A DNA stretch of 34,104 bases, from positions 1 to 34,104 of the forward strand of contig PHAM01000016.1 of the NCBI GenBank assembly GCA_002841685.1, in the 5' to 3' direction. Positions 23,216 to 33,999 of this stretch are shown here, in pieces. The notes under the pieces are model-generated. The model was not told the DNA's origin. It was given only the letters and a program-made list of their open reading frames with translations, and did not search any database. The position numbers and the translations under genes are program-made. This stretch comes from Elusimicrobia bacterium HGW-Elusimicrobia-2 (GTDB taxonomy: Bacteria; CG03). How positions within the stretch are numbered: the stretch's first letter is position 1; each line of letters opens with the position of its first letter.

Positions 23216-24445
23216 ATGGAACTTTTGATTAAAAATGCTCAGCTTAGAAAACGGAAAGGCCTTGTGGACATTGCCGTTGATAAGGGAAAAATCGTTAAAA
23301 TCGCCAAAGGCATCAAAGCCAAAGCCGCCAAAGTCATAGACGCGCTCGGAAATCTTGTGACGGAACCCTTCTGCAACGCTCATCTTCATCTTTGCAAAGT
23401 CTGGACTCTGCAGATGATGGACGAAAAAGCCCTGAAAGATTATCACGGCTCCGATATGGGAAAAGCCATGTCGGCGATTGAGCTTGCCGCCAGGGTCAAG
23501 GAAAACTACGACGAGAAATGGATAATAAAGAATGTCAGAAAAGCCGTGGAGATGGCCATGAAATACGGCAATCTTCACATAAGAGCTTTCGCGGATGTGG
23601 ATTCCAAGGCAAAACTTGAGGGGGTGAAAGCTCTCATCAAAGCGAGAGAAGAGTACAAAGGCCTTGTGGACATACAGGTCGTAGCTTTCCCTCAGGACGG
23701 AGTTATAAGAGATCCCGGCGCGGAAGAGCTTGTCAAAAAAGCAATGGCACTCGGCGCTGATATCGTCGGCGGAATCCCGTGGATAGAATATACGGAAGCG
23801 GACGAACTCGCGCACATACAGAAGATGATGGCCATAGCGAGAAAATATAACAAGGATGTTTCAATGCTCGTGGACGACGCCGGGGATGCAACGCTCAAAA
23901 CCCTTGAGATGTACGCCGTGGAGGCCATCAAGACCGGCTGGACGGGGCGCTGTCTTGCCCAGCACGCGAGGGCGATGTGTCTGTACCCGAAACCTTATTT
24001 TCAGAAAGTCGTGGCGCTGCTAAAAAAAGCGAAGCTTGGTATTGTGACGGATCCTCACACGGGGCCGCTGCACGCGCGGGTGGGCGAACTTCTTGAGGAA
24101 GGCGCTCTGGTGTGCATAGGCCAGGACGACATTTCCGACGCCTATTATCCTTACGGCAGGAACAACATGCTTGAAGTCGCGTTTATGGCGTCACACCTTT
24201 TGTGGATGACGGGCGCCGATGATATGGAAACGCTTTATGACATGATCACGGTCAACGGCGCGAAAGCCATGAATGTGAAGAATTACGGAATCAAAGAGGG
24301 CAATCCCGCCAGCTTCCTCGTTCTCGGCGTTGACAGCGTCCTTGAAGCTTTCCGCGGTCAGGAAGCTCCCGCCTGCGTGATAAACGGCGGCAAGGTCATA
24401 GCCGAAACGAAAAGCGTTACCAAAATATACGGGGTCAGGTCTTGA
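23216..24445 (+). CDS. CodA-like amidohydrolase with altered metal site
   Basis: A 409-residue amidohydrolase-superfamily protein closest in pattern to cytosine deaminase CodA. Matches include the metal motif 'NAHLHLCK' (H56, H58), 'VVAFPQDG' (Q160, substrate loop), 'LAQHARAM' (H250, equivalent to CodA His246) and 'CIGQDDISDAYYPYGRNNML', which mirrors CodA 'GHDDVFDPWYPLGTANML' (Asp313 equivalent D304). The fourth region is odd: CodA 'HCDEIDD' corresponds best to 'LVDDAGD' (218-224), so the metal-binding histidine is leucine and the catalytic glutamate is aspartate. True cytosine deaminase activity is therefore doubtful. Strong ribosome site AGGAGG. The 3' end runs into the 24-bp inverted repeat. 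The adjacent molybdenum hydroxylase genes suggest a role in N-heterocycle metabolism (inference). Confidence 0.8.
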   Translation: MELLIKNAQLRKRKGLVDIAVDKGKIVKIAKGIKAKAAKVIDALGNLVTEPFCNAHLHLCKVWTLQMMDEKALKDYHGSDMGKAMSAIELAARVKENYDEKWIIKNVRKAVEMAMKYGNLHIRAFADVDSKAKLEGVKALIKAREEYKGLVDIQVVAFPQDGVIRDPGAEELVKKAMALGADIVGGIPWIEYTEADELAHIQKMMAIARKYNKDVSMLVDDAGDATLKTLEMYAVEAIKTGWTGRCLAQHARAMCLYPKPYFQKVVALLKKAKLGIVTDPHTGPLHARVGELLEEGALVCIGQDDISDAYYPYGRNNMLEVAFMASHLLWMTGADDMETLYDMITVNGAKAMNVKNYGIKEGNPASFLVLGVDSVLEAFRGQEAPACVINGGKVIAETKSVTKIYGVRS

Positions 24446-24555
24446 CATGTGACAAATTTGCGAGAATGTCAGATTTCGATTCCAAACAAATTTATTAGAA
24501 GATATGAGGTTGTCAGGACTGAAAGTTGCGATGTCACATGTCAAGACCTGACCCC
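24431..24555. repeat. perfect 24-bp inverted repeat with 77-bp spacer
   Basis: The left arm (24431-24454, begins GGGGTCAGGTCTTGACATGT) and right arm (24532-24555, ends CATGTCAAGACCTGACCCC) are exact reverse complements. The 77 bases between are AT-rich and encode nothing recognisable. The left arm contains the stop codon of the amidohydrolase gene. It resembles the non-autonomous palindromes mobilised by REP-associated tyrosine transposases (family recollection, not tested). Confidence 0.92.
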
Positions 24556-24570
24556 ATTAGGGAGGATGAA

Positions 24571-26910
24571 GTGAGTTTGAAATATGTGGGTAAGAATATC
24601 ACAAGGTCCGACGCGGTTAAGAAGATCACGGGAAAGTCTGTTTTTCTTGATGATATAAAACTGCCGGGAATGCTTTATACAGCGATCCTTACTCCGCCCA
24701 CGGCGCACGCTAAGATCGTGTCCATAGACACATCCGCGGCCGAAAAAGAACCCGGCGTCATAAAAGTCGTCACCGGCAAGAGCATAGATTTTCTTTTCGG
24801 TGATAACGTGAAGGACAGAGTGCCTATGGCGGTGGACAGGGTGCGCTATATAGGCGAGCCCGTAGCGGCTGTCATAGCCGAGAATCCCCATCAGGCGAAA
24901 ATGGCGCTCAAAAAAATAGAGGTGAAGTACAAAGCTCTTCCCGTCTACATTGACGCCAGAGAAGCTCTGAAAAAGAAAGCCGCGCTCATCCATCCCGACA
25001 GCGGCGATTACTGGCATCTGCCGGGTATGGGGCCCGAGGCAAAAACCAACATAGCCGATCATTATCTTCTCAAAAAGGGCGATGTAAAAAAAGGTTTCGC
25101 CGAAGCCGATCTGGTTCTTGAGGGAGAATTCAACTATCCCTTCAGCTCTTCCGCGGCCATAGAGCCGCACGGCGCCATCGCCATACATCACGAGGACGGG
25201 GGCATAGAGATATGGTCGTCCTCAATATGTCCTTTCGTCATAAGGGAGGATATAGCCCACACATACAAACTGCCGGTCTCGTCCGTGCGGGTGCACATTC
25301 CCGAAGTCGGCGGCTGTTTCGGCTATAAATCCGATGTCACCGTCGAGCAGACAATAGCCTACATAGCGAGTTTTGTCCCCGGCCGTCCCGTTAAATGGGT
25401 GGCCAGCCGAAAAGAGGATTTTCTTTCAACGCTCCTCGGCCACGGCATAAGAACAAAATTCAAAGTCGGCGTGAAGAAGAACGGCAAACTCACGGCTCTT
25501 CAGACGACGATCCTTCATTCCACGGGCGCGTATGTGGACACGGGCCTCCATGTCATGAGAGGCTCCACCCACAACTCTACAGGCACTTACGAATTCCCGA
25601 ACTGTTACCTTGACGGTTATTCGGTCTACACCAACACGCCTCCCGTCGGAGCTTACAGGGGATACGGCCATCAGGAATCGCAGCTGGGCATGGAGAGGAT
25701 GATGGATATTATAGCCCGAAAACTCGGCATGGATGCTTTCAAGCTCAGGGAGATCAATTATCTTGGGCCGGGAAAAATGACTTCTATAGGCGAGAGGCTG
25801 TGGGAGAGCAACGGCAATGTGAAAAAATGCGCCGATATTGTACGGAAAAAGATTTTTACGGGGAAAAAGAAAAAAGAAGATGCTGATTATTACTACGGCC
25901 GCGGTTTCGCGGCGGTCATGAAATCGCCCAAAGGCGCGCCTTTTTCTTCAAAGAGCTGTTATCTGAAATTCAACGTTGACGGAAGTGTTTCAATAAACAT
26001 GGGCGGCGCCGAAGTCGGACAGGGGCTGAGAAATGTAGTGAGGCTCGTGGCGGCGGAAGCGCTGAAGATAGATCCTTCCCGCATAAGCGTTTACACGGAA
26101 ATCGACACGCAGTTCTCGCCCTGGGAATGGCAGACGATAGGCTCCATGTTCACGATGCAGGGCGGACGCGCGGTTGTTCGGGCTGCTGAAAAAGCCATAC
26201 ATCAGCTGAAAAAAACGGCGATGATGGCTCTCAAGTGCGATTACGATATGCTGGAATACGACGGGGATTATATTTTCCTGTCCTCCGATCCGGGCGTTAG
26301 AGTGTCCGTCCCGTCACTGGCGCAGGGTTATATGACCGAAGACGGGATAACCGTAGGCGAAGTCGTTCACACGACTTCCGACGCGAGGCTCCCCAGATAC
26401 TCCAACCCTGATGCCAACGGACAGGGTTCCTTCGGGGTGACATACACCTTCGGCGCCCAGGCCTGCGAGATAAGGATAGAGAAAAAAACAGGTAAGATCA
26501 TCGTGGACCATTTCGCGTCGTCCTTTGACGTCGGGCAGGTGATAAATCCCGTGCAGATAAGAGGCCAGGTCGTGGGCGGCGTCGTGATGGCGCTGGGTTC
26601 CACTCTTTACGAAGAGACAAAATTCGATGCCGACGGAGTGTGCCCCAACCCGCAATTCTCAAAATACAGATTCCCGACGATAAATGACGCTCCGGCGAAG
26701 CAGACGGTTGAGTTCGTGGAAACGCCCGGCAAGATCGGGCCTTTCGGCGCGCGTGGAATAGGAGAGCACCCTGTTATAGGCGTGGCTCCGGCGGTGCTGA
26801 ACGCCGTTTATGACGCTACGGGAATAGATTTTTACGAGATACCGCTGTCGCCGGAGAAGGTGAAAGCGGCGATAGACGCGAAGGGAGATAATCGATGTCC
26901 GAAAAAATAA
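24571..26910 (+). CDS. xanthine dehydrogenase-family molybdopterin-binding subunit
   Basis: A 779-residue large subunit of a molybdenum hydroxylase. I choose GTG 24571 with ribosome site AGGGAGG ('SLKYVGKNITRSDAVKKITG' follows); the ORF-track TTG at 24526 is inside the inverted repeat. The N-terminal domain (about 10-120) has 'AILTPPTAHAKIVSIDTS' and 'RVRYIGEPVAAVIAE'. The Mo domains have 'IPEVGGCFGYKSD' (usual GGGFGGK), 'PPVGAYRGYGHQESQ', 'GGAEVGQGL' and the catalytic glutamate E732 in 'GARGIGEHPVIGVAP'. Substrates in the family include xanthine, nicotinate and aldehydes; the sequence does not decide. It overlaps the [2Fe-2S] subunit gene by 16 bp. The FAD subunit usually encoded alongside is missing here. 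Confidence 0.92.
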   Translation: MSLKYVGKNITRSDAVKKITGKSVFLDDIKLPGMLYTAILTPPTAHAKIVSIDTSAAEKEPGVIKVVTGKSIDFLFGDNVKDRVPMAVDRVRYIGEPVAAVIAENPHQAKMALKKIEVKYKALPVYIDAREALKKKAALIHPDSGDYWHLPGMGPEAKTNIADHYLLKKGDVKKGFAEADLVLEGEFNYPFSSSAAIEPHGAIAIHHEDGGIEIWSSSICPFVIREDIAHTYKLPVSSVRVHIPEVGGCFGYKSDVTVEQTIAYIASFVPGRPVKWVASRKEDFLSTLLGHGIRTKFKVGVKKNGKLTALQTTILHSTGAYVDTGLHVMRGSTHNSTGTYEFPNCYLDGYSVYTNTPPVGAYRGYGHQESQLGMERMMDIIARKLGMDAFKLREINYLGPGKMTSIGERLWESNGNVKKCADIVRKKIFTGKKKKEDADYYYGRGFAAVMKSPKGAPFSSKSCYLKFNVDGSVSINMGGAEVGQGLRNVVRLVAAEALKIDPSRISVYTEIDTQFSPWEWQTIGSMFTMQGGRAVVRAAEKAIHQLKKTAMMALKCDYDMLEYDGDYIFLSSDPGVRVSVPSLAQGYMTEDGITVGEVVHTTSDARLPRYSNPDANGQGSFGVTYTFGAQACEIRIEKKTGKIIVDHFASSFDVGQVINPVQIRGQVVGGVVMALGSTLYEETKFDADGVCPNPQFSKYRFPTINDAPAKQTVEFVETPGKIGPFGARGIGEHPVIGVAPAVLNAVYDATGIDFYEIPLSPEKVKAAIDAKGDNRCPKK

Positions 26911-27371
26911 CATTCAAAGTAAACGGCAGAGAAAGAACTGTTGAGCTGGAAGGCTGGGAGAGAGGCCTTGATGTGCTGAGGGAAAACCTCGGCCTGACCG
27001 GGTCCAAGAGGGGCTGTGACGACGCCACCTGCGGAGCCTGCACCGTTGTGGTCAACGGCGAAGCGAAAAAAAGCTGCGTGATGCTCGCCAAAAAACTTGA
27101 CGGCGCCGATATCCTCACGATAGAGGGTATTTCCAAAGGGAAAAAACTGCATCCCATACAGGACGCCCTGATAGAATCCGGCGCCGTGCAGTGCGGTTAC
27201 TGCACCCCGGGAATAGTGATGGAGCTCTACGCGCTCTTTAACAAAAATCTTGCCGCGTCAAAAAAAGAAGTAAAAGACGCTCTCGCAAAGCATCTGTGCC
27301 GCTGCACCGGTTACGAGGCGATTTTTGAAGGCGCGCTCCTGGCCCAGGCAAAACTCAAAAAGAAGACTTGA
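26895..27371 (+). CDS. [2Fe-2S] subunit of molybdenum hydroxylase
   Basis: A 158-residue small subunit carrying two [2Fe-2S] clusters. The N-terminal plant-ferredoxin-like domain has C41, C46, C49 and C61 ('GCDDATCGACTVVVNG', 'KKSCVML'). The C-terminal helical domain has C100, C103, C135 and C137 ('VQCGYCTPGIVMELYAL', 'HLCRCTGYEAI'). The length and cysteine spacing match XdhC/CoxS/NdhS-type subunits. It takes electrons from the Mo centre and normally passes them to a FAD subunit, which is not encoded nearby, so an outside acceptor such as ferredoxin or a distant FAD protein must be used. The ATG at 26895 lies within the end of the large-subunit gene; its stop overlaps the TTG of the next gene. 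Confidence 0.95.
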   Translation: MSEKITFKVNGRERTVELEGWERGLDVLRENLGLTGSKRGCDDATCGACTVVVNGEAKKSCVMLAKKLDGADILTIEGISKGKKLHPIQDALIESGAVQCGYCTPGIVMELYALFNKNLAASKKEVKDALAKHLCRCTGYEAIFEGALLAQAKLKKKT

Positions 27372-28299: not shown

Positions 28300-28323
28300 C
28301 GGGCAGTCCCCCTTTATTTTTCC
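28300..28323. repeat. GTCCC-type repeat fragment at 3' end of minus-strand operon
   Basis: The sequence 'CGGGCAGTCCCCCTTTATTT' is similar to the other GTCCC-type elements and contains the stop codon (TTA on this strand) of the flavoprotein gene. The 82-bp gap between the two converging genes holds no clear terminator hairpin besides this. Confidence 0.4.
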
Positions 28324-30398
28324 GGAGGCAGGGGAGCTTTTTTTATCTTTAATCTGAAGCGGCAGTCAAGGCAGCGCTTTGCTTCGGCGACAGCCGTGTC
28401 GTCGTTAAAGCACAATTCCACCTGCGAAAAATTGTTAAGTCTTTTTTCCACGGGCAGCGTTTGTGAAGATGTCCTTTCCCTGAAGGCAAAGCGTTCTTCT
28501 TTCTGAAAAGCGCTTTCTTCGGTTTCGGGTTTTGCAAGTAGATAGTCTATTTGTCCATCACCGCCCATGAATTTGTCCATTTCCGAGGCCGCGTGCCGTC
28601 CCGCCTGTATGGCGTCTATGACGGTGGCCGGACCGCTTACGGCATCTCCTCCGGCGAAAACGCCCTCTATCCCGCAGGAAAGGGTTTTAGTATCGGCCTC
28701 AATAAGGCCTTTTTTGTTGAGCGTCACTTCAAGCGTTTCAGGCAAATCCGTTTTTTGGCCTATCGCGAACACAAAGGTGTCGGTTTTTGTTGTAAATTCA
28801 CTTCCTTCCACGGGAACAGGCCTTTTCCTGCCGCTTTCGTCAGGGTCCCCGAGAGCCATTTTGACGCATTTAATTGTTAATTTGTCGTCCGAACGTGTTA
28901 TGGCCAGGGGATTTGTCAGGAAATTTATTTTTATACCTTCCTTCAGCGCTTCTTCTATTTCTTCTTTTGCCGCCGGCATTTCCTCCCGTCCCCGGCGATA
29001 AAGTATTGTCACTTCTTCGGCGCCCGTTCTGAGAACGCAGCGCGCCGAATCTATAGCGACATTGCCGCCCCCGGTAATGGTTACGGATTTTCCGTAATTT
29101 GTTTTCTCGCCGGTGTTAATTGCCCCGAGCAGGGATATTCCGTCCGTTACGCCCTCAGGAAGGTCACTGCCCTGAATGGGCATTTTTGTTCCCTTGCCTG
29201 TTCCGGGGGCAAGGAACACGGAGTTGAACCCGCTGCTTAAAAGTTCTTTTGCGGAGGTTATTTCGGTGTTGCACTTTATTTGAACGCCTATTTTTTTTAT
29301 TTCCCTTATTTCACCGCCCAGAATTGCAGAGGGCAGCCGGTATTCGGGTATTCCTGTTCTCATCATGCCGCCGGGGTGAGCTGATTTCTCAAATACGGTA
29401 ACGCTGTGTCCCTTAAGGCGCAGGAACCACGCCGCCGAAAGGCCGGCCGGCCCGGAACCAACAATTGCCGCCTTTCTCCCCGTGTCGGGAGAGATATTTA
29501 GTTTTTTACGCCATGAACCGTTGTCTTTTTCGGCGACGAATTTTTTTAATTCCCTTATGGAGATAGGGCTGTTGATTTCGCCGCGCCTGCATTTTTCTTC
29601 GCAGGGATGAGTGCAAACGCATCCGAGAGTGTGCGGGAAAGGCACTTTTTCTCTTATCAAATCAAGCGCTTCCCTGAAGTTTTTGCCAGCTATGAGTTTT
29701 ACATAACGCGACACTTCTATTCCGGCCGGACATGAGCCGGTGCAGGGAAGCAGTGTTTTTTCGCGGTCTTTCTCGTCGTAATGTATTTTATCCCGTAAGG
29801 CGCCCGTCGGACAAACTTCAACGCATGCCAGGCAGAATCTGCAATCGGAATCCATGAGGCCTTTTCCTGACGATGTGTTCACGCAGGTGTTTATTCCGCG
29901 TCCCATCATGCCTATGACAGACGCCTTTCTGATTTCCCTGCACATTTCGACGCATTTGCCGCAGAGTATGCATTTGTTCATATCTCTTGTGAAGAGAGGA
30001 TCATCCGTGGCGGACGGGCGGCGGGTTTTTTCAAAATTAAATCCGGGAAGAAGACAGGTTTCCCCTATCATGTCCGCAACTTTTTTCAGAGCGGTGTTTT
30101 CGTCAGGCTGGCCGTCAAATTCGCTCTGTATCAGCCACATGTTGTTTTGACGGAGTTTTTTCAGGCGGGGAGAATTTGTGATTACGGTCATACCTTCCGC
30201 GGCGAGAGTGGAACAGGACGCGGGGTTTCCCTTTAACCCGTCTATTTCAACAACGCAAAGCCGGCATGCGGCTTTGGGCTTCATCTCCGGATGATAGCAC
30301 AAATTAGGTATGTATATCCCCGCGCCCAGAGCTGCCTCAAGAACGCTGGATCCTTTTTTGGCGCGCACCTTTTTTCCGTCTATGGATAGAGTTGTCAT
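28314..30398 (-). CDS. iron-sulfur protein fused to NfnB/GltD-like flavoprotein (StnC-like)
   Basis: A 694-residue multi-cofactor protein. Residues 1-78 are a [2Fe-2S] domain (C34, C45, C48, C62). The His-Cys3 cluster motif expected next in NuoG/HydA is absent (about 83-100, 'RQNNMWLIQSEFDGQPDE'). Two [4Fe-4S] motifs follow: 'CILCGKCVEMC' (143-153) and 'CRFCLACVEVC' (186-196). Residues about 215-690 are GltD/NfnB-like: cysteines 'PCTGSCPAG' and 'CVCTHPCEEKC', FAD motif 'AIVGSGPAGLSAAWFL', second dinucleotide motif 'VTITGGGNVAIDSARCVL' with 'YRRGREEMPA' (suggesting NADP(H)), and 'GGDAVSGPATVIDAI'. There is no H-cluster domain, so this is not a hydrogenase. With the two upstream genes (4-bp overlaps) it has the layout of StnC of the Sporomusa-type transhydrogenase. 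Confidence 0.85.
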   Translation of the reverse strand: MTTLSIDGKKVRAKKGSSVLEAALGAGIYIPNLCYHPEMKPKAACRLCVVEIDGLKGNPASCSTLAAEGMTVITNSPRLKKLRQNNMWLIQSEFDGQPDENTALKKVADMIGETCLLPGFNFEKTRRPSATDDPLFTRDMNKCILCGKCVEMCREIRKASVIGMMGRGINTCVNTSSGKGLMDSDCRFCLACVEVCPTGALRDKIHYDEKDREKTLLPCTGSCPAGIEVSRYVKLIAGKNFREALDLIREKVPFPHTLGCVCTHPCEEKCRRGEINSPISIRELKKFVAEKDNGSWRKKLNISPDTGRKAAIVGSGPAGLSAAWFLRLKGHSVTVFEKSAHPGGMMRTGIPEYRLPSAILGGEIREIKKIGVQIKCNTEITSAKELLSSGFNSVFLAPGTGKGTKMPIQGSDLPEGVTDGISLLGAINTGEKTNYGKSVTITGGGNVAIDSARCVLRTGAEEVTILYRRGREEMPAAKEEIEEALKEGIKINFLTNPLAITRSDDKLTIKCVKMALGDPDESGRKRPVPVEGSEFTTKTDTFVFAIGQKTDLPETLEVTLNKKGLIEADTKTLSCGIEGVFAGGDAVSGPATVIDAIQAGRHAASEMDKFMGGDGQIDYLLAKPETEESAFQKEERFAFRERTSSQTLPVEKRLNNFSQVELCFNDDTAVAEAKRCLDCRFRLKIKKAPLPPEK

Positions 30399-32146
30399 TT
30401 TATGGCTTTAAAATCGCAGGCCGCGAAACAGGCCATGCATTTTATACATTTCTCTTTATTTATTTCGGCGGTTCTGCCTTTTTCCCATTCTATCGCGCCT
30501 ACGGGACACGACGTGCTGCATTTTCCGCACTTCACGCATTTTTCCTCAATAACTTCGAATTTTACAAGCTCCACACAAGTGTTGGCGTCGCACACACGGT
30601 TGTTTATATGTTCCTCATATTCCCGGCGGAAATATTTCAACGTTGTGAGCACGGGATTCGGCGCGGTGTTACCGAGACCGCACAGGGCCGTTGATTTTAT
30701 TGTTTCGCACATCTCCTTGAGAAAATCAAGATCTCTTGTTTCTCCCCTGCCTTTTGTTATTTTATCAAGCACTTCATACATTCTTTTCAAACCTATTCTG
30801 CAGGGCACGCACTTTCCGCAGGATTCGGCGACAGTGAAACCGAGAAAGAATTTCGCGATGTCAACCATGCACGTTTTTTCATCCATCACAATAAAGCCCC
30901 CGCTTCCCATTATTGCCCCCGTTTTGGCAAGAGCCTTATAATCTATGGGGGTGCTTAGAAGCGTTTCGGGGAGACAACCGCCTGAAGGGCCGCCTATCTG
31001 CACGGCCTTCAGTTTGCTTCTTTTGCTCTTGAGCCCGCCTCCGGGGCCGTAGATAAGATTTTTTATCGTTGTGCCCATCGGGATTTCAACGAGCCCCGTG
31101 TTTCTCACTTTGCCGGCCAGCGCGAACACTTTCGTTCCCTTGCTTTCGGCGGAGCCGATGGCGCTGAACCAGTCCGCGCCGTTGTTTATTATGTGAGGGA
31201 TATTGGCGAGAGTTTCAACGTTATTTATGACGGTGGGTTTACCCCACAGGCCTTTTTGAGCCGGGAAGGGCGGCCTGGGTTTGGGTGTCCCGCGTTTTCC
31301 TTCAATTGACGCCAGAAGCGCGGTTTCCTCGCCGCAGACAAAAGCTCCGGCGCCTTTTTTTATTGACAGCTTGAACGAAAAATCGCTTTTCAGAATATTG
31401 TTTCCGAGAAATCCTCTTTCTTCCGCCTGTTTCAGGGCTTTGTTCAATCTCTCTATGGCCAGCGGGTATTCTGCGCGGCAGTAGATATATCCTTCGTTCG
31501 CTCCTATCGCATACCCGGCGATTATCATGCCTTCAATAACCGATTGCGGGTCGCCTTCAAGGATGCTTCTGTCCATAAAAGCCCCGGGATCTCCCTCATC
31601 GGCGTTGCACACCATGTATTTAACGCCGCTCTTTTCTTTATGGCAGAATTCCCATTTTAATCCGGTGCTGAAGCCCGCGCCGCCCCGGCCCCGAAGGCCG
31701 GATTTTTTTATTTCGTCTATGATTTTTTCAGGAGGCAGGGGGATGGCTTTTTTCAGCGCCTCAAAACCTCCCGTGCCGATGTATTCGTCAATGTTCTCGG
31801 GATCGATCTCGCCGCAGTTTTTCAGAACGACTCTTGTCTGGTTAGCGAAAAATTCCTCGTAGCTTTTTCCCGCCGTTAGAGCGGCAGCGGGCGTGTTTTT
31901 TACAAGGTGACTTTCCGTTATTTTTTTTACATCCGCCGGTTTTACATGTTCGTAAGTGACGCGTTTGCCGTCGGTGATTATATCCACCAGCACATCGCGG
32001 AAAAGCCCCCTGTCTCCCGTTTTTACCAAATTAAATTTGCCGCGGAGATTCAGGCGTTTCAGCTCTGATTTAAAAATTTCTATAACTTCCCCGGCTCCCG
32101 CCGATAAACCGCTTGTGCCGGCACAGACGAGTATCCTGTTTTTCAT
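30395..32146 (-). CDS. NuoF/HydB-like NADH-binding flavoprotein subunit (StnB-like)
   Basis: A 583-residue subunit. Residues 1-90 are a thioredoxin-like domain that normally holds [2Fe-2S], but only C8 remains: positions 13, 45 and 49 are Gly, Asp and Phe ('CAGTSGLSAG', 'KTGDRGLFRD'). The NuoF core follows: 'GLRGRGGAGFSTGLKWEF' (FMN/NADH), 'NADEGDPGAFMDRSILEGDP', 'GAGAFVCGEETALLASIEG' and the [4Fe-4S] motif 'ESCGKCVPCRIG' with the later 'ALCGLG'. The C-terminus has two ferredoxin-type [4Fe-4S] motifs, 'CVKCGKCSTSCPVGAI' and 'CIKCMACFAACDFKAI'. This is the domain order of HydB and StnB, which oxidise or reduce NAD(H) and exchange electrons with ferredoxin in bifurcating complexes. It overlaps both neighbours by 4 bp. 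Confidence 0.9.
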   Translation of the reverse strand: MKNRILVCAGTSGLSAGAGEVIEIFKSELKRLNLRGKFNLVKTGDRGLFRDVLVDIITDGKRVTYEHVKPADVKKITESHLVKNTPAAALTAGKSYEEFFANQTRVVLKNCGEIDPENIDEYIGTGGFEALKKAIPLPPEKIIDEIKKSGLRGRGGAGFSTGLKWEFCHKEKSGVKYMVCNADEGDPGAFMDRSILEGDPQSVIEGMIIAGYAIGANEGYIYCRAEYPLAIERLNKALKQAEERGFLGNNILKSDFSFKLSIKKGAGAFVCGEETALLASIEGKRGTPKPRPPFPAQKGLWGKPTVINNVETLANIPHIINNGADWFSAIGSAESKGTKVFALAGKVRNTGLVEIPMGTTIKNLIYGPGGGLKSKRSKLKAVQIGGPSGGCLPETLLSTPIDYKALAKTGAIMGSGGFIVMDEKTCMVDIAKFFLGFTVAESCGKCVPCRIGLKRMYEVLDKITKGRGETRDLDFLKEMCETIKSTALCGLGNTAPNPVLTTLKYFRREYEEHINNRVCDANTCVELVKFEVIEEKCVKCGKCSTSCPVGAIEWEKGRTAEINKEKCIKCMACFAACDFKAIK

Positions 32147-32613
32147 CCCGTTTTTTTCCTGTACCCGTCCAGAATCTCATCAACTTTCTGTATTGTGCAG
32201 TTGCCGTAAAAATCGTTGTCTATCATTATGGCCGGCGCCATTCCGCAGCAGCCCAGGCACGCAACCCGTTCGGGAGAAAACAATCCGTCGGTGGTGGTTC
32301 CGTTTTCTTTTACTTTCAGCGTAGTCAGAATATAATTGAGAATCTGTTTCCCGCCCATGACGTGGCAGGCTGTTCCCTGACAGACCTTTATTGTGTGTTT
32401 TCCCGGCGGTTCGGTGCGGAATTGCGCGTAAAAAGTTATCACCTCGTATATTTCTACGCTGGGGATATCTAGCTTTTCGGCGATAAGTTTTACGGCGTCT
32501 GCACGGATATAGCCATATTCTGTCTGCATATCCTGAAGAAGTGGAATGAGCGCGCCTTTTTCGGCAGCGTGTTTTTTTATTATTTTTTCCGCTTTCTCTA
32601 TATCAATATTCAT
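32143..32613 (-). CDS. NuoE/HydC-like [2Fe-2S] subunit (StnA-like)
   Basis: A 156-residue thioredoxin-fold subunit. An N-terminal helical bundle ('LIPLLQDMQTEYGYI', 'LDIPSVEIYEVITFYAQF') leads to the [2Fe-2S] domain with four cysteines in 'VCQGTACHVMGG' and 'VACLGCCGMAPAIMI', the C-x4-C and C-x3-C spacing of NuoE. It is the first of three overlapping genes and acts with the NuoF-like protein in NADH electron transfer. The ATG at 32613 has only a weak ribosome site (GAAG), and it overlaps the stop of a tiny upstream ORF (ATGA), which suggests translational coupling. NuoE-NuoF pairs also occur in [FeFe]-hydrogenases and formate dehydrogenases; the third gene points to Stn. Confidence 0.93.
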   Translation of the reverse strand: MNIDIEKAEKIIKKHAAEKGALIPLLQDMQTEYGYIRADAVKLIAEKLDIPSVEIYEVITFYAQFRTEPPGKHTIKVCQGTACHVMGGKQILNYILTTLKVKENGTTTDGLFSPERVACLGCCGMAPAIMIDNDFYGNCTIQKVDEILDGYRKKTG

Positions 32614-32836: not shown

Positions 32837-32860
32837 ATGAAGCGTCTGCGCAAAAAATGA
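32837..32860 (+). CDS. 7-codon minigene ahead of the glycosyltransferase (uncertain)
   Basis: The best ribosome site of this leader (AAAGGGAGAAAGT) points to ATG 32837, which encodes only 'MKRLRKK' and stops in TGA overlapping the glycosyltransferase ATG (ATGA). The glycosyltransferase start itself has no separate ribosome site, so translation by re-initiation is plausible. Confidence 0.4.
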   Translation: MKRLRKK

Positions 32861-33999
32861 AAAACAAGGAAGAAAAGAAAATATGCGTCCACATAGTCAC
32901 GACCCTCGAGCTGGGCGGCGCGCAGCAGAACACGCTTTTCACCGTCGCGAACATGAGCGCTTTTCGCGGCGTTCTGATAGCCGGCCGCGAGGGCATGACA
33001 GAACCCGGGGGAATTGAGGTTTACCGGATAGGCTCTCTTGTCAGGGAAATAAATCCATTTAAGGATATCGCCGCCTTTTTTTCGCTTTACCGCATCTTAA
33101 GGAAGTTGAAACCTCATATAGTCCACACTCATTCATCCAAGGCGGGTATCCTCGGGCGCTGGGCGGCTTTTTTCGCGCGTGTTCCCGTTATCATCCACAC
33201 CTTTCACGGCTTCGGTTTTAACGACAGGCAGAAACCACGTGTGAGAAAAACCTATATTCGGGCGGAAAAGATGACAGCTAAAATATCCACCGCTCTTTTC
33301 GCCGTGTCAAAAAACAACCTTGAAAAAGCCGTTTCTCTGGGCATTTGCCCGGTGGAGAAGATATCGGTGGTTCATTCGGGGATAGACATGAAGGCATGGG
33401 AAGGGAATATTCCGCGCGCTGACGCGAAAAAAAGTTTCGGCATAGCGAAGGATGTTCCCGTCGTGGGAATGGCCGCCTGCTTTAAGGAGCAGAAGGCGCC
33501 GCTGGATTTTATAGAGGCTGCCGAGCGCGTAAAAAAGCTCAATCCCCGGACGAAATTCATTATTGTCGGCGACGGTATTCTCCGTGAGGAAATAGAAAAA
33601 AGCATTTACAGGCATCGTCTGGGCGATGATGTGATACTCGCCGGCTGGCGGACGGACATGGAAAAAGTCCTCCCCGCTTTTGACGTGAATGTCCTGACCT
33701 CGCTCTGGGAAGGCCTTCCGAGGGTGTCTCTTGAGGCGGGGGCCTGCCTGATACCGCAGGTGCTCAGCGATGTTGACGGCGTTTCCGAGATAATAGAAGA
33801 CGGCGTCACGGGTTATCTTGTCGCGCCGCATGATATTGAAACATTTGTCGAGCGTATAGATTTTCTTATAAAAAACCCCGATCAGGGCAGGGTGCTCGCC
33901 CATAGACTCAGGAAAAAGCTCACGGGGGATTTTGACATCAGGGCAATGGTGAGGCTCATAGAAGAGAAATACGCCGGAATCATGGGCTCCCGCAATTGA
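32857..33999 (+). CDS. GT4-family glycosyltransferase
   Basis: A 380-residue GT-B fold glycosyltransferase. The N-terminal acceptor domain has 'HIVTTLELGGAQQNTLFTVA' and 'LKPHIVHTHSSKAGILGRWA', both typical of family GT4 enzymes that act in surface polysaccharide or lipid-linked sugar synthesis, with 'IIHTFHGFGF'. The C-terminal nucleotide-sugar domain has 'VVHSGIDMKAW', 'PVVGMAACFKEQKAPLDFIE', 'IIVGDGILREEIE', 'VILAGWRTDMEKVLPAFDV' and 'LTSLWEGLPRVSLEAGAC', the last containing the E-x7-E motif region (one glutamate in 'WEGLP', one in 'SLEAG'). Sugar donor and acceptor cannot be told. The start at 32857 overlaps a 7-codon minigene. It transcribes away from the stn-like operon, and further cell-surface genes may lie beyond the window. 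Confidence 0.9.
   Translation: MKNKEEKKICVHIVTTLELGGAQQNTLFTVANMSAFRGVLIAGREGMTEPGGIEVYRIGSLVREINPFKDIAAFFSLYRILRKLKPHIVHTHSSKAGILGRWAAFFARVPVIIHTFHGFGFNDRQKPRVRKTYIRAEKMTAKISTALFAVSKNNLEKAVSLGICPVEKISVVHSGIDMKAWEGNIPRADAKKSFGIAKDVPVVGMAACFKEQKAPLDFIEAAERVKKLNPRTKFIIVGDGILREEIEKSIYRHRLGDDVILAGWRTDMEKVLPAFDVNVLTSLWEGLPRVSLEAGACLIPQVLSDVDGVSEIIEDGVTGYLVAPHDIETFVERIDFLIKNPDQGRVLAHRLRKKLTGDFDIRAMVRLIEEKYAGIMGSRN

Follow-up and report, generated by a model that had tools for sequence, protein, structure and literature searches.

Which enzyme is encoded by a three-gene operon that joins NuoE- and NuoF-like subunits to an iron-sulfur protein fused with an NfnB-like flavoprotein is the question raised by the locus described here. 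The operon lies on the minus strand (28314-32613) of a window of 34,104 nucleotides, the whole stretch of DNA analyzed, from the uncultured Elusimicrobia bacterium HGW-Elusimicrobia-2. A sequence-only reading assigned it to the Sporomusa-type bifurcating transhydrogenase, StnABC. The function read there is very likely right, but the family assignment does not hold—that is, the operon very probably encodes a heterotrimeric, soluble, flavin-based electron-bifurcating, NADP(H)-linked transhydrogenase belonging to the Bfu (HydABC-like) superfamily, outside Stn, equivalent in function to NfnAB and StnABC but assembled independently of both.

Operon anatomy and cluster ligands

The open reading frames, their minus-strand orientation, and the 4-bp overlaps at both gene junctions (32143-32146 and 30395-30398) are as that reading described, and so is the Pfam content. 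The first gene (32613-32143, minus strand) encodes a BfuC subunit of 156 aa, similar to NuoE, HydC, and StnA (PF01257), with a thioredoxin-like [2Fe-2S] site formed by C78, C83, C119, and C123. The second (32146-30395, minus strand) encodes a BfuB subunit of 583 aa, similar to NuoF, HydB, and StnB, and comprising an FMN/NADH domain and a C-terminal 2x[4Fe-4S] ferredoxin domain (PF01512, SLBB, PF10589, and two C-terminal Fer4 matches). The third (30398-28314, minus strand) encodes the fused A-subunit of 694 aa, with matches to Fer2_4, Fer4_Nqo3/Fer4, Fer4_20, and Pyr_redox_2. No Pfam match to the H-cluster families was found in any of the three proteins. Gene order and domain order are conserved in five other genomes of the phylum and in six further named loci, and the operon is therefore not a chance arrangement. 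A promoter and terminator scan around the operon returned nothing convincing, the lone minus-strand promoter-like site near the operon start falling within the first gene, and no match was found among the viral contigs scanned.

The A-subunit begins with a Fer2 [2Fe-2S] domain, A2 (residues 1-95; 30114..30398, minus strand; C34, C45, C48, and C62), followed by a HydA/NuoG-type dicluster of two [4Fe-4S] clusters (residues 126-207; 29778..30023, minus strand; C143/146/149/153 and C186/189/192/196) and by a circularly permuted NfnB/GltD module (residues 217-691; 28326..29750, minus strand) with clusters C6 and C7 and the FAD and NADP(H) Rossmann folds. This arrangement, Fer2-Fer4-GltD, is referred to below as the serial order. 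The clusters were inventoried from cysteine positions and the ligand schemes of Stn and NfnB/DPD. C6 is predicted from the cysteine positions to be bound by C219, C270, C676, and C679, and C7 is predicted from the sequence to be bound by C223, C262, C266, and K285. The CxxC of C6 is C-terminal in the window protein and N-terminal in NfnB; residues 48-460 and 5-45 of NfnB align in swapped order, representing a clean circular permutation. C196 and C219 are 23 residues apart, with the dicluster abutting the NfnB module in sequence. The His-Cys3 motif HxxxCxxCxxxxxC, which normally follows Fer2 (A3; C5 in Stn), is absent. K285 occupies the position of K170 in StnC, and this position is Lys in 26 of 26 serial modules, Glu in 19 of 32 single-chain modules (those of NfnB type), and Gln in the three DPD-type modules and, as in dihydropyrimidine dehydrogenase, in the second and third GltD-like genes of the host genome. 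The predicted iron content is 34 Fe per heterotrimer, versus 42 for StnABC.

The Bfu family has been defined by a BfuB with FMN, SLBB, NADH_4Fe-4S, and C-terminal 4Fe-4S domains, a BfuC with a 2Fe-2S thioredoxin-like domain, and a BfuA with at least 2Fe-2S and 4Fe-4S domains (PMC9304861). All of these are present in the operon, as Pfam equivalents of the InterPro domains. In BfuB, the B1 4Fe-4S ligands (C443/446/449/489), both clusters of the C-terminal ferredoxin domain, the acids corresponding to E184 and D186 of the StnB FMN loop, and the unusual B2 ligands (C426, T464, H513, C519, and C524) are kept, the last including the diagnostic His that has been reported to be present in bifurcating BfuB but missing from homologues that do not bifurcate (PMC9304861). 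Furthermore, all 12 BfuB rows of the clade that were examined retain the B2 ligands (with Cys or Ser at the T464 position in two rows), the C-terminal ferredoxin domain, and the acids of the FMN loop. The cysteines of the N-terminal thioredoxin-like cluster (B5) are lost in the window BfuB and in nearly all of its clade, leaving it short of the five-cluster BfuB of the Bfu scheme; this loss is not decisive for Bfu membership, because StnB is accepted as a member although B1-B4 are all that is listed for it, too. The B2 ligands and the domain content thus support what had been proposed of this operon—namely, a bifurcating NuoEF core and an NADP(H)/FAD module.

Domain order and phylogeny relative to StnABC

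In the PDB, the A-subunit is matched best by 9bov (Caldicellulosiruptor NfnABC), 8oh5 (StnABC), and 9n5u (T. sibiricus NfnABC), all of which are NADP(H)-linked bifurcating complexes, and chains of 9bov, 9n5u, and 8oh5 also took the top Foldseek ranks when an AlphaFold2 model of the subunit (pLDDT 90.9, pTM 0.87) was used. The N-terminal part of HydA1 of 8a6t matches residues 1-207 (E 4e-38). For the NuoF-like and NuoE-like subunits, Nfn/Hyd-type bifurcating subunits outrank complex I as matches. Respiratory complex I (NuoEFG) was rejected as an identity, there being no nuo operon with membrane subunits beside these genes and a ferredoxin domain in the NuoF; HydABC [FeFe]-hydrogenase, there being no H-cluster domain in the A-subunit or elsewhere in the genome; and NfnAB, there being no NfnA and NfnB subunits and no Glu at the proximal cluster. 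AadN (PMC9973337) was rejected as a relative, being a fusion of NfnA and NfnB and of another type.

Contrary to the architecture first claimed, the domain order is not that of StnABC. StnC comprises Fer2 (1-101), GltD (102-565), dicluster, and FdhF-like (683-1172) domains (PMC10482914). In the window A-subunit, Fer2 (aligned with StnC 5-98) is followed by the dicluster (StnC 602-701) and then the NfnB module (StnC 102-568); there is no FdhF-like domain, and the C5/A3 motif is missing throughout its clade. When the domains of 80 named loci were mapped by BLAST, the serial order (L083-L100 and L104) separated cleanly from the Stn order, Fer2-GltD-Fer4 (L102, L105, L108-L112, L114, L120, L122-L124, L127, L134, L135, L145, L147, and L149). 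The serial proteins of group I—those of the window, of genomes G005 and G010-G013, and of loci L083, L084, and L086-L089 (L085 being the same locus as G005)—have NuoE and NuoF directly upstream and lack HxxxCxxCxxxxxC. Those of group II, the next relatives of the A-subunit, retain this motif, and mostly pair with formate dehydrogenase, benzoyl-CoA reductase, or a degenerate NuoF, not with a bifurcating core, indicating that the NfnB-like module is promiscuous. In S. ovata, the Stn complex was destroyed when its FdhF domain was removed (PMC10482914); therefore, the window enzyme must assemble differently.

Several related arrangements were seen among these loci. The Stn-order A-subunits at L102:4715-6841 and L105:5001-7139 (708 and 712 aa, respectively) end after the dicluster, without an FdhF domain. 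In Dehalococcoidia (L092:1-2987), a serial A-subunit with the His-Cys3 cluster lies beside a NuoF with B2 ligands and a ferredoxin domain, and is likely an intermediate between groups I and II. In Lachnospiraceae and Holophagaceae (L094, L096, L098, L099, and L100), a serial A-subunit that has the His-Cys3 cluster precedes a degenerate NuoF, whose FMN domain is weak or absent, and a flavoprotein resembling fumarate reductase is found nearby in L094, L098, and L100. Serial A-subunits of ~820-840 aa beside class I benzoyl-CoA reductase-like genes (L042:5603-8134 and L043:6460-8922, recognized by a look at the sequence) resemble the ferredoxin-regenerating protein BzdV. In addition, NuoF-GltD fusions of ~1045 aa in the same phylum (L044:6685-9819, L045:7358-10495, L049:5414-8563, and L050:986-4120) are followed by an [FeFe]-hydrogenase and, where scored, have His instead of Lys at the FAD-proximal cluster position.

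In an IQ-TREE analysis of 71 NfnB-like modules, group I formed a clade with support of 100/100, nested in an almost purely serial clade of 25 rows (100/100) and apart from the Stn clade (94/90); a quick tree of 113 rows agreed. Forcing group I and Stn together cost 92.9 log-likelihood units (AU test, p = 0.000736, a value that is indicative, the test having been picked after the first tree was seen). The fused subunit does not group with StnC, and its placement among non-Stn clades in the module tree is the outcome that the sequence-only reading had itself set against a Stn identity. The NuoF-like subunits of group I also form their own clade (support of 100), apart from the StnB-type rows. 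The exception is L088, whose NuoF, being of other origin, falls outside this clade, indicating that the A-subunit was re-paired there.

Exchange with NfnAB and host genome content

Among 16 genomes of the phylum, the operon was found in six, NfnB (with NfnA adjoining) in six, both in none, and neither in four (P = 0.026 for the non-overlap, without tree correction). Beside the window operon, a family-4 glycosyltransferase gene (32857..33999, plus strand), which does not belong to the enzyme, serves as a marker of the slot: it shares 95% DNA identity with that of G003, from the same genus, with the alignment ending at the gene start, and in G003, G002, and G006 NfnA-NfnB lies directly beside the glycosyltransferase, where the window has the operon. 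At a second site, the gene order is ackA-nfnA-nfnB-plsX-fab in G008 and G014 and ackA-bfuC-bfuB-fused-plsX-fab in G010 and G013, and is the same in G012 up to the contig end. Directly upstream of bfuC in L083, an N-terminal nfnB stump of ~77 residues (L083:2423-2706; 64% identity) runs into unrelated sequence, and no intact NfnB was seen in that genome; this stump is a fossil of a displaced NfnAB, and only here is the direction of exchange clear. A glutamate dehydrogenase gene adjoins the operon in L086 and L089 (the latter by inspection of the sequence) and adjoins NfnAB in G009. A search of the window for a remnant of NfnA or NfnB gave as its sole match the homologous module of the A-subunit itself.

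The mutual exclusion of the operon and NfnAB is not absolute, because four genomes carry neither and because a counter-example, G062 (L084), a MAG labelled Thermoplasmatota, has the operon near glutamate dehydrogenase together with an intact NfnB, to be explained either by gene transfer into an archaeon or by a mixed bin. Individual cases could be artefacts of errors in MAGs, but an exchange pattern that recurs in this way could hardly be. Overall, the exchange in situ supports the transhydrogenase role proposed for the operon.

The host genome (94 contigs, 1.78 Mb, 96% complete), the content of which was assessed by family searches, contains one NuoF gene. PF02906 ([FeFe]-hydrogenase) was not found in the whole genome, which bears out the lack of H-cluster motifs noted earlier and leaves the NuoEF pair without an [FeFe]-hydrogenase partner, the other finding that the sequence-only reading had set against its own proposal. 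Neither NfnB nor NfnAB was found in the genome by these searches, and the remaining GltD-like genes comprise a PreT/PreA pair along with one fused relative. PFOR, RnfC, and a group-4 NiFe hydrogenase are present, in line with the ferredoxin-based anaerobe that had been predicted. The group-4 membrane NiFe hydrogenase (L175:643-2845 (G000:C55); RICGICS and DPCYCC motifs) adjoins a Nuo-like membrane subunit. Elsewhere in the window (23216-27371), a cytosine-deaminase-like amidohydrolase is accompanied by xanthine-dehydrogenase-type Mo and 2Fe-2S subunits; this set, along with two dihydropyrimidine-dehydrogenase-like genes elsewhere (L002 and L003), hints at nucleobase use.

Alternative readings, predicted mechanism, and known systems

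That the operon encodes a true Stn family member, shortened and rearranged, is quite unlikely: the three-gene layout and functional modules match, the K170 equivalent is conserved, and StnC is among the best matches, but the domain order differs in every clade member, with no FdhF domain and no C5 cluster, the separate clade is supported at 100/100, union with the Stn rows is rejected (p-AU 0.0007), and BfuB lies in a clade apart from the StnB-type rows. Phylogeny and domain order already contradict this reading. A non-bifurcating NADPH:ferredoxin or NADPH:NAD+ oxidoreductase—an energy-neutral diaphorase—made from the same parts might be suspected from the loss of B5 and from the group II relatives that work with non-bifurcating or degenerate NuoF, and cluster counts alone do not prove bifurcation. 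However, the B2 ligands, ferredoxin domain, and FMN-loop acids recur across all of the clade BfuB rows examined (bar the two T464 replacements), StnB likewise lists no B5, and the slot exchange is with the bifurcating NfnAB; such a diaphorase is unlikely. It is very unlikely that the operon supplies the NADP(H)-linked module for a larger complex, be it a formate dehydrogenase, a benzoyl-CoA reductase, or a hydrogenase, with its catalytic subunit encoded elsewhere in the genome. None of the group I loci examined has a catalytic gene next to the operon, [FeFe]-hydrogenase is absent from the genome, and the group-4 NiFe hydrogenase comes with Nuo-like membrane partners of its own, although group II serial A-subunits do sit in such clusters (L042/L043, L090, and L091).

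The preferred bifurcating transhydrogenase would catalyze the reaction NADH + reduced ferredoxin + NADP+ <-> NAD+ + oxidised ferredoxin + NADPH, probably mainly towards NADPH; a supply of NADPH for biosynthesis is suggested by the neighbors of the operon in relatives, namely ackA and isocitrate dehydrogenase-family, fatty-acid synthesis, and glutamate dehydrogenase genes. NADP(H) would bind to the C-terminal FAD module of the A-subunit, the FAD acting as a plain NADP(H) port, and electrons would reach the FMN of the NuoF-like subunit by way of C7, C6, the HydA-type 4Fe-4S dicluster, the [2Fe-2S]/proximal cluster, and B1. Given that the His-Cys3 cluster is missing and that an intact dicluster directly adjoins the NfnB module in sequence, we infer entry through the dicluster; the dicluster port has been assigned to [FeFe]-HydA and Type 2 enzymes (PMC9304861). 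By homology with StnAB/HydBC, bifurcation between NAD(H) and ferredoxin would occur at this FMN, via B2, the NuoE-like [2Fe-2S] cluster as a gate, and the C-terminal ferredoxin domain. The A-subunit would in effect be a HydA with its H-cluster domain swapped for a permuted NfnB. These enzymes probably constitute a third, independently assembled class of bifurcating transhydrogenase, after NfnAB and Stn/NfnABC—of HydA type, with a permuted NfnB in place of the H-cluster domain, entry on the A4 side, and in-situ exchange with NfnAB at least twice in one phylum. Searches of open-access papers turned up no account of this domain order together with a bifurcating core.

The structures compared were those of StnABC from Sporomusa ovata (PDB 8oh5/8oh9) and of NfnABC from Caldicellulosiruptor saccharolyticus (9bov) and Thermococcus sibiricus (9n5u). 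The window enzyme shares with these complexes three subunits, a NuoE/NuoF bifurcating core with B2 and a ferredoxin domain, and a third subunit with Fer2, a dicluster, an NADP(H)/FAD module, and Lys at C7. Unlike in these complexes, the NfnB module is C-terminal rather than between Fer2 and the dicluster, the FdhF-like domain and the His-Cys3 cluster C5/A3 are lacking, and the A-subunit is of 694 aa, versus 963-1178. T. sibiricus NfnABC lacks A4, whereas the window dicluster is intact. HydABC has the same core and also a catalytic domain at the C-terminus of the A-subunit, but the window enzyme has an NfnB-like module for the H-cluster domain, and the His-Cys3 cluster is lost. With NfnAB are shared the presumed reaction, the metabolic slot, and a homologous NfnB module (about 41-45% identity), which in the window is permuted and has Lys for Glu at the FAD-proximal cluster; there is no NfnA, and bifurcation is expected at the NuoF-like FMN, as in Stn, and not at FAD, as in NfnAB. 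Group II (Dehalococcoidia, Lachnospiraceae, and the BzdV-like proteins beside benzoyl-CoA reductase) has the same domain order and belongs to the same 100/100 clade, but keeps the His-Cys3 cluster and mostly has other enzyme partners.

That the operon and NfnAB have been exchanged in situ is strong genomic evidence for two unrelated assemblies performing one and the same task, and gives annotators a reason against labelling these genes as NADH dehydrogenase, hydrogenase, or glutamate synthase. Bfu enzymes have been viewed as plug-in machines, with one bifurcating core serving many catalytic modules through ports A3 or A4, and in the NADP(H) versions characterised so far A3 is the port used—by way of C5 in StnABC, and A3 itself in the T. 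sibiricus enzyme (PMC10482914, PMC9304861). Group I would be a natural example of an enzyme that runs this reaction through the A4 port with a smaller set of clusters, and with such an example the port model and the puzzling need for FdhF in S. ovata become directly testable: in Stn, the A4 side is a dead end, whereas in the window enzyme it would be the side of entry.
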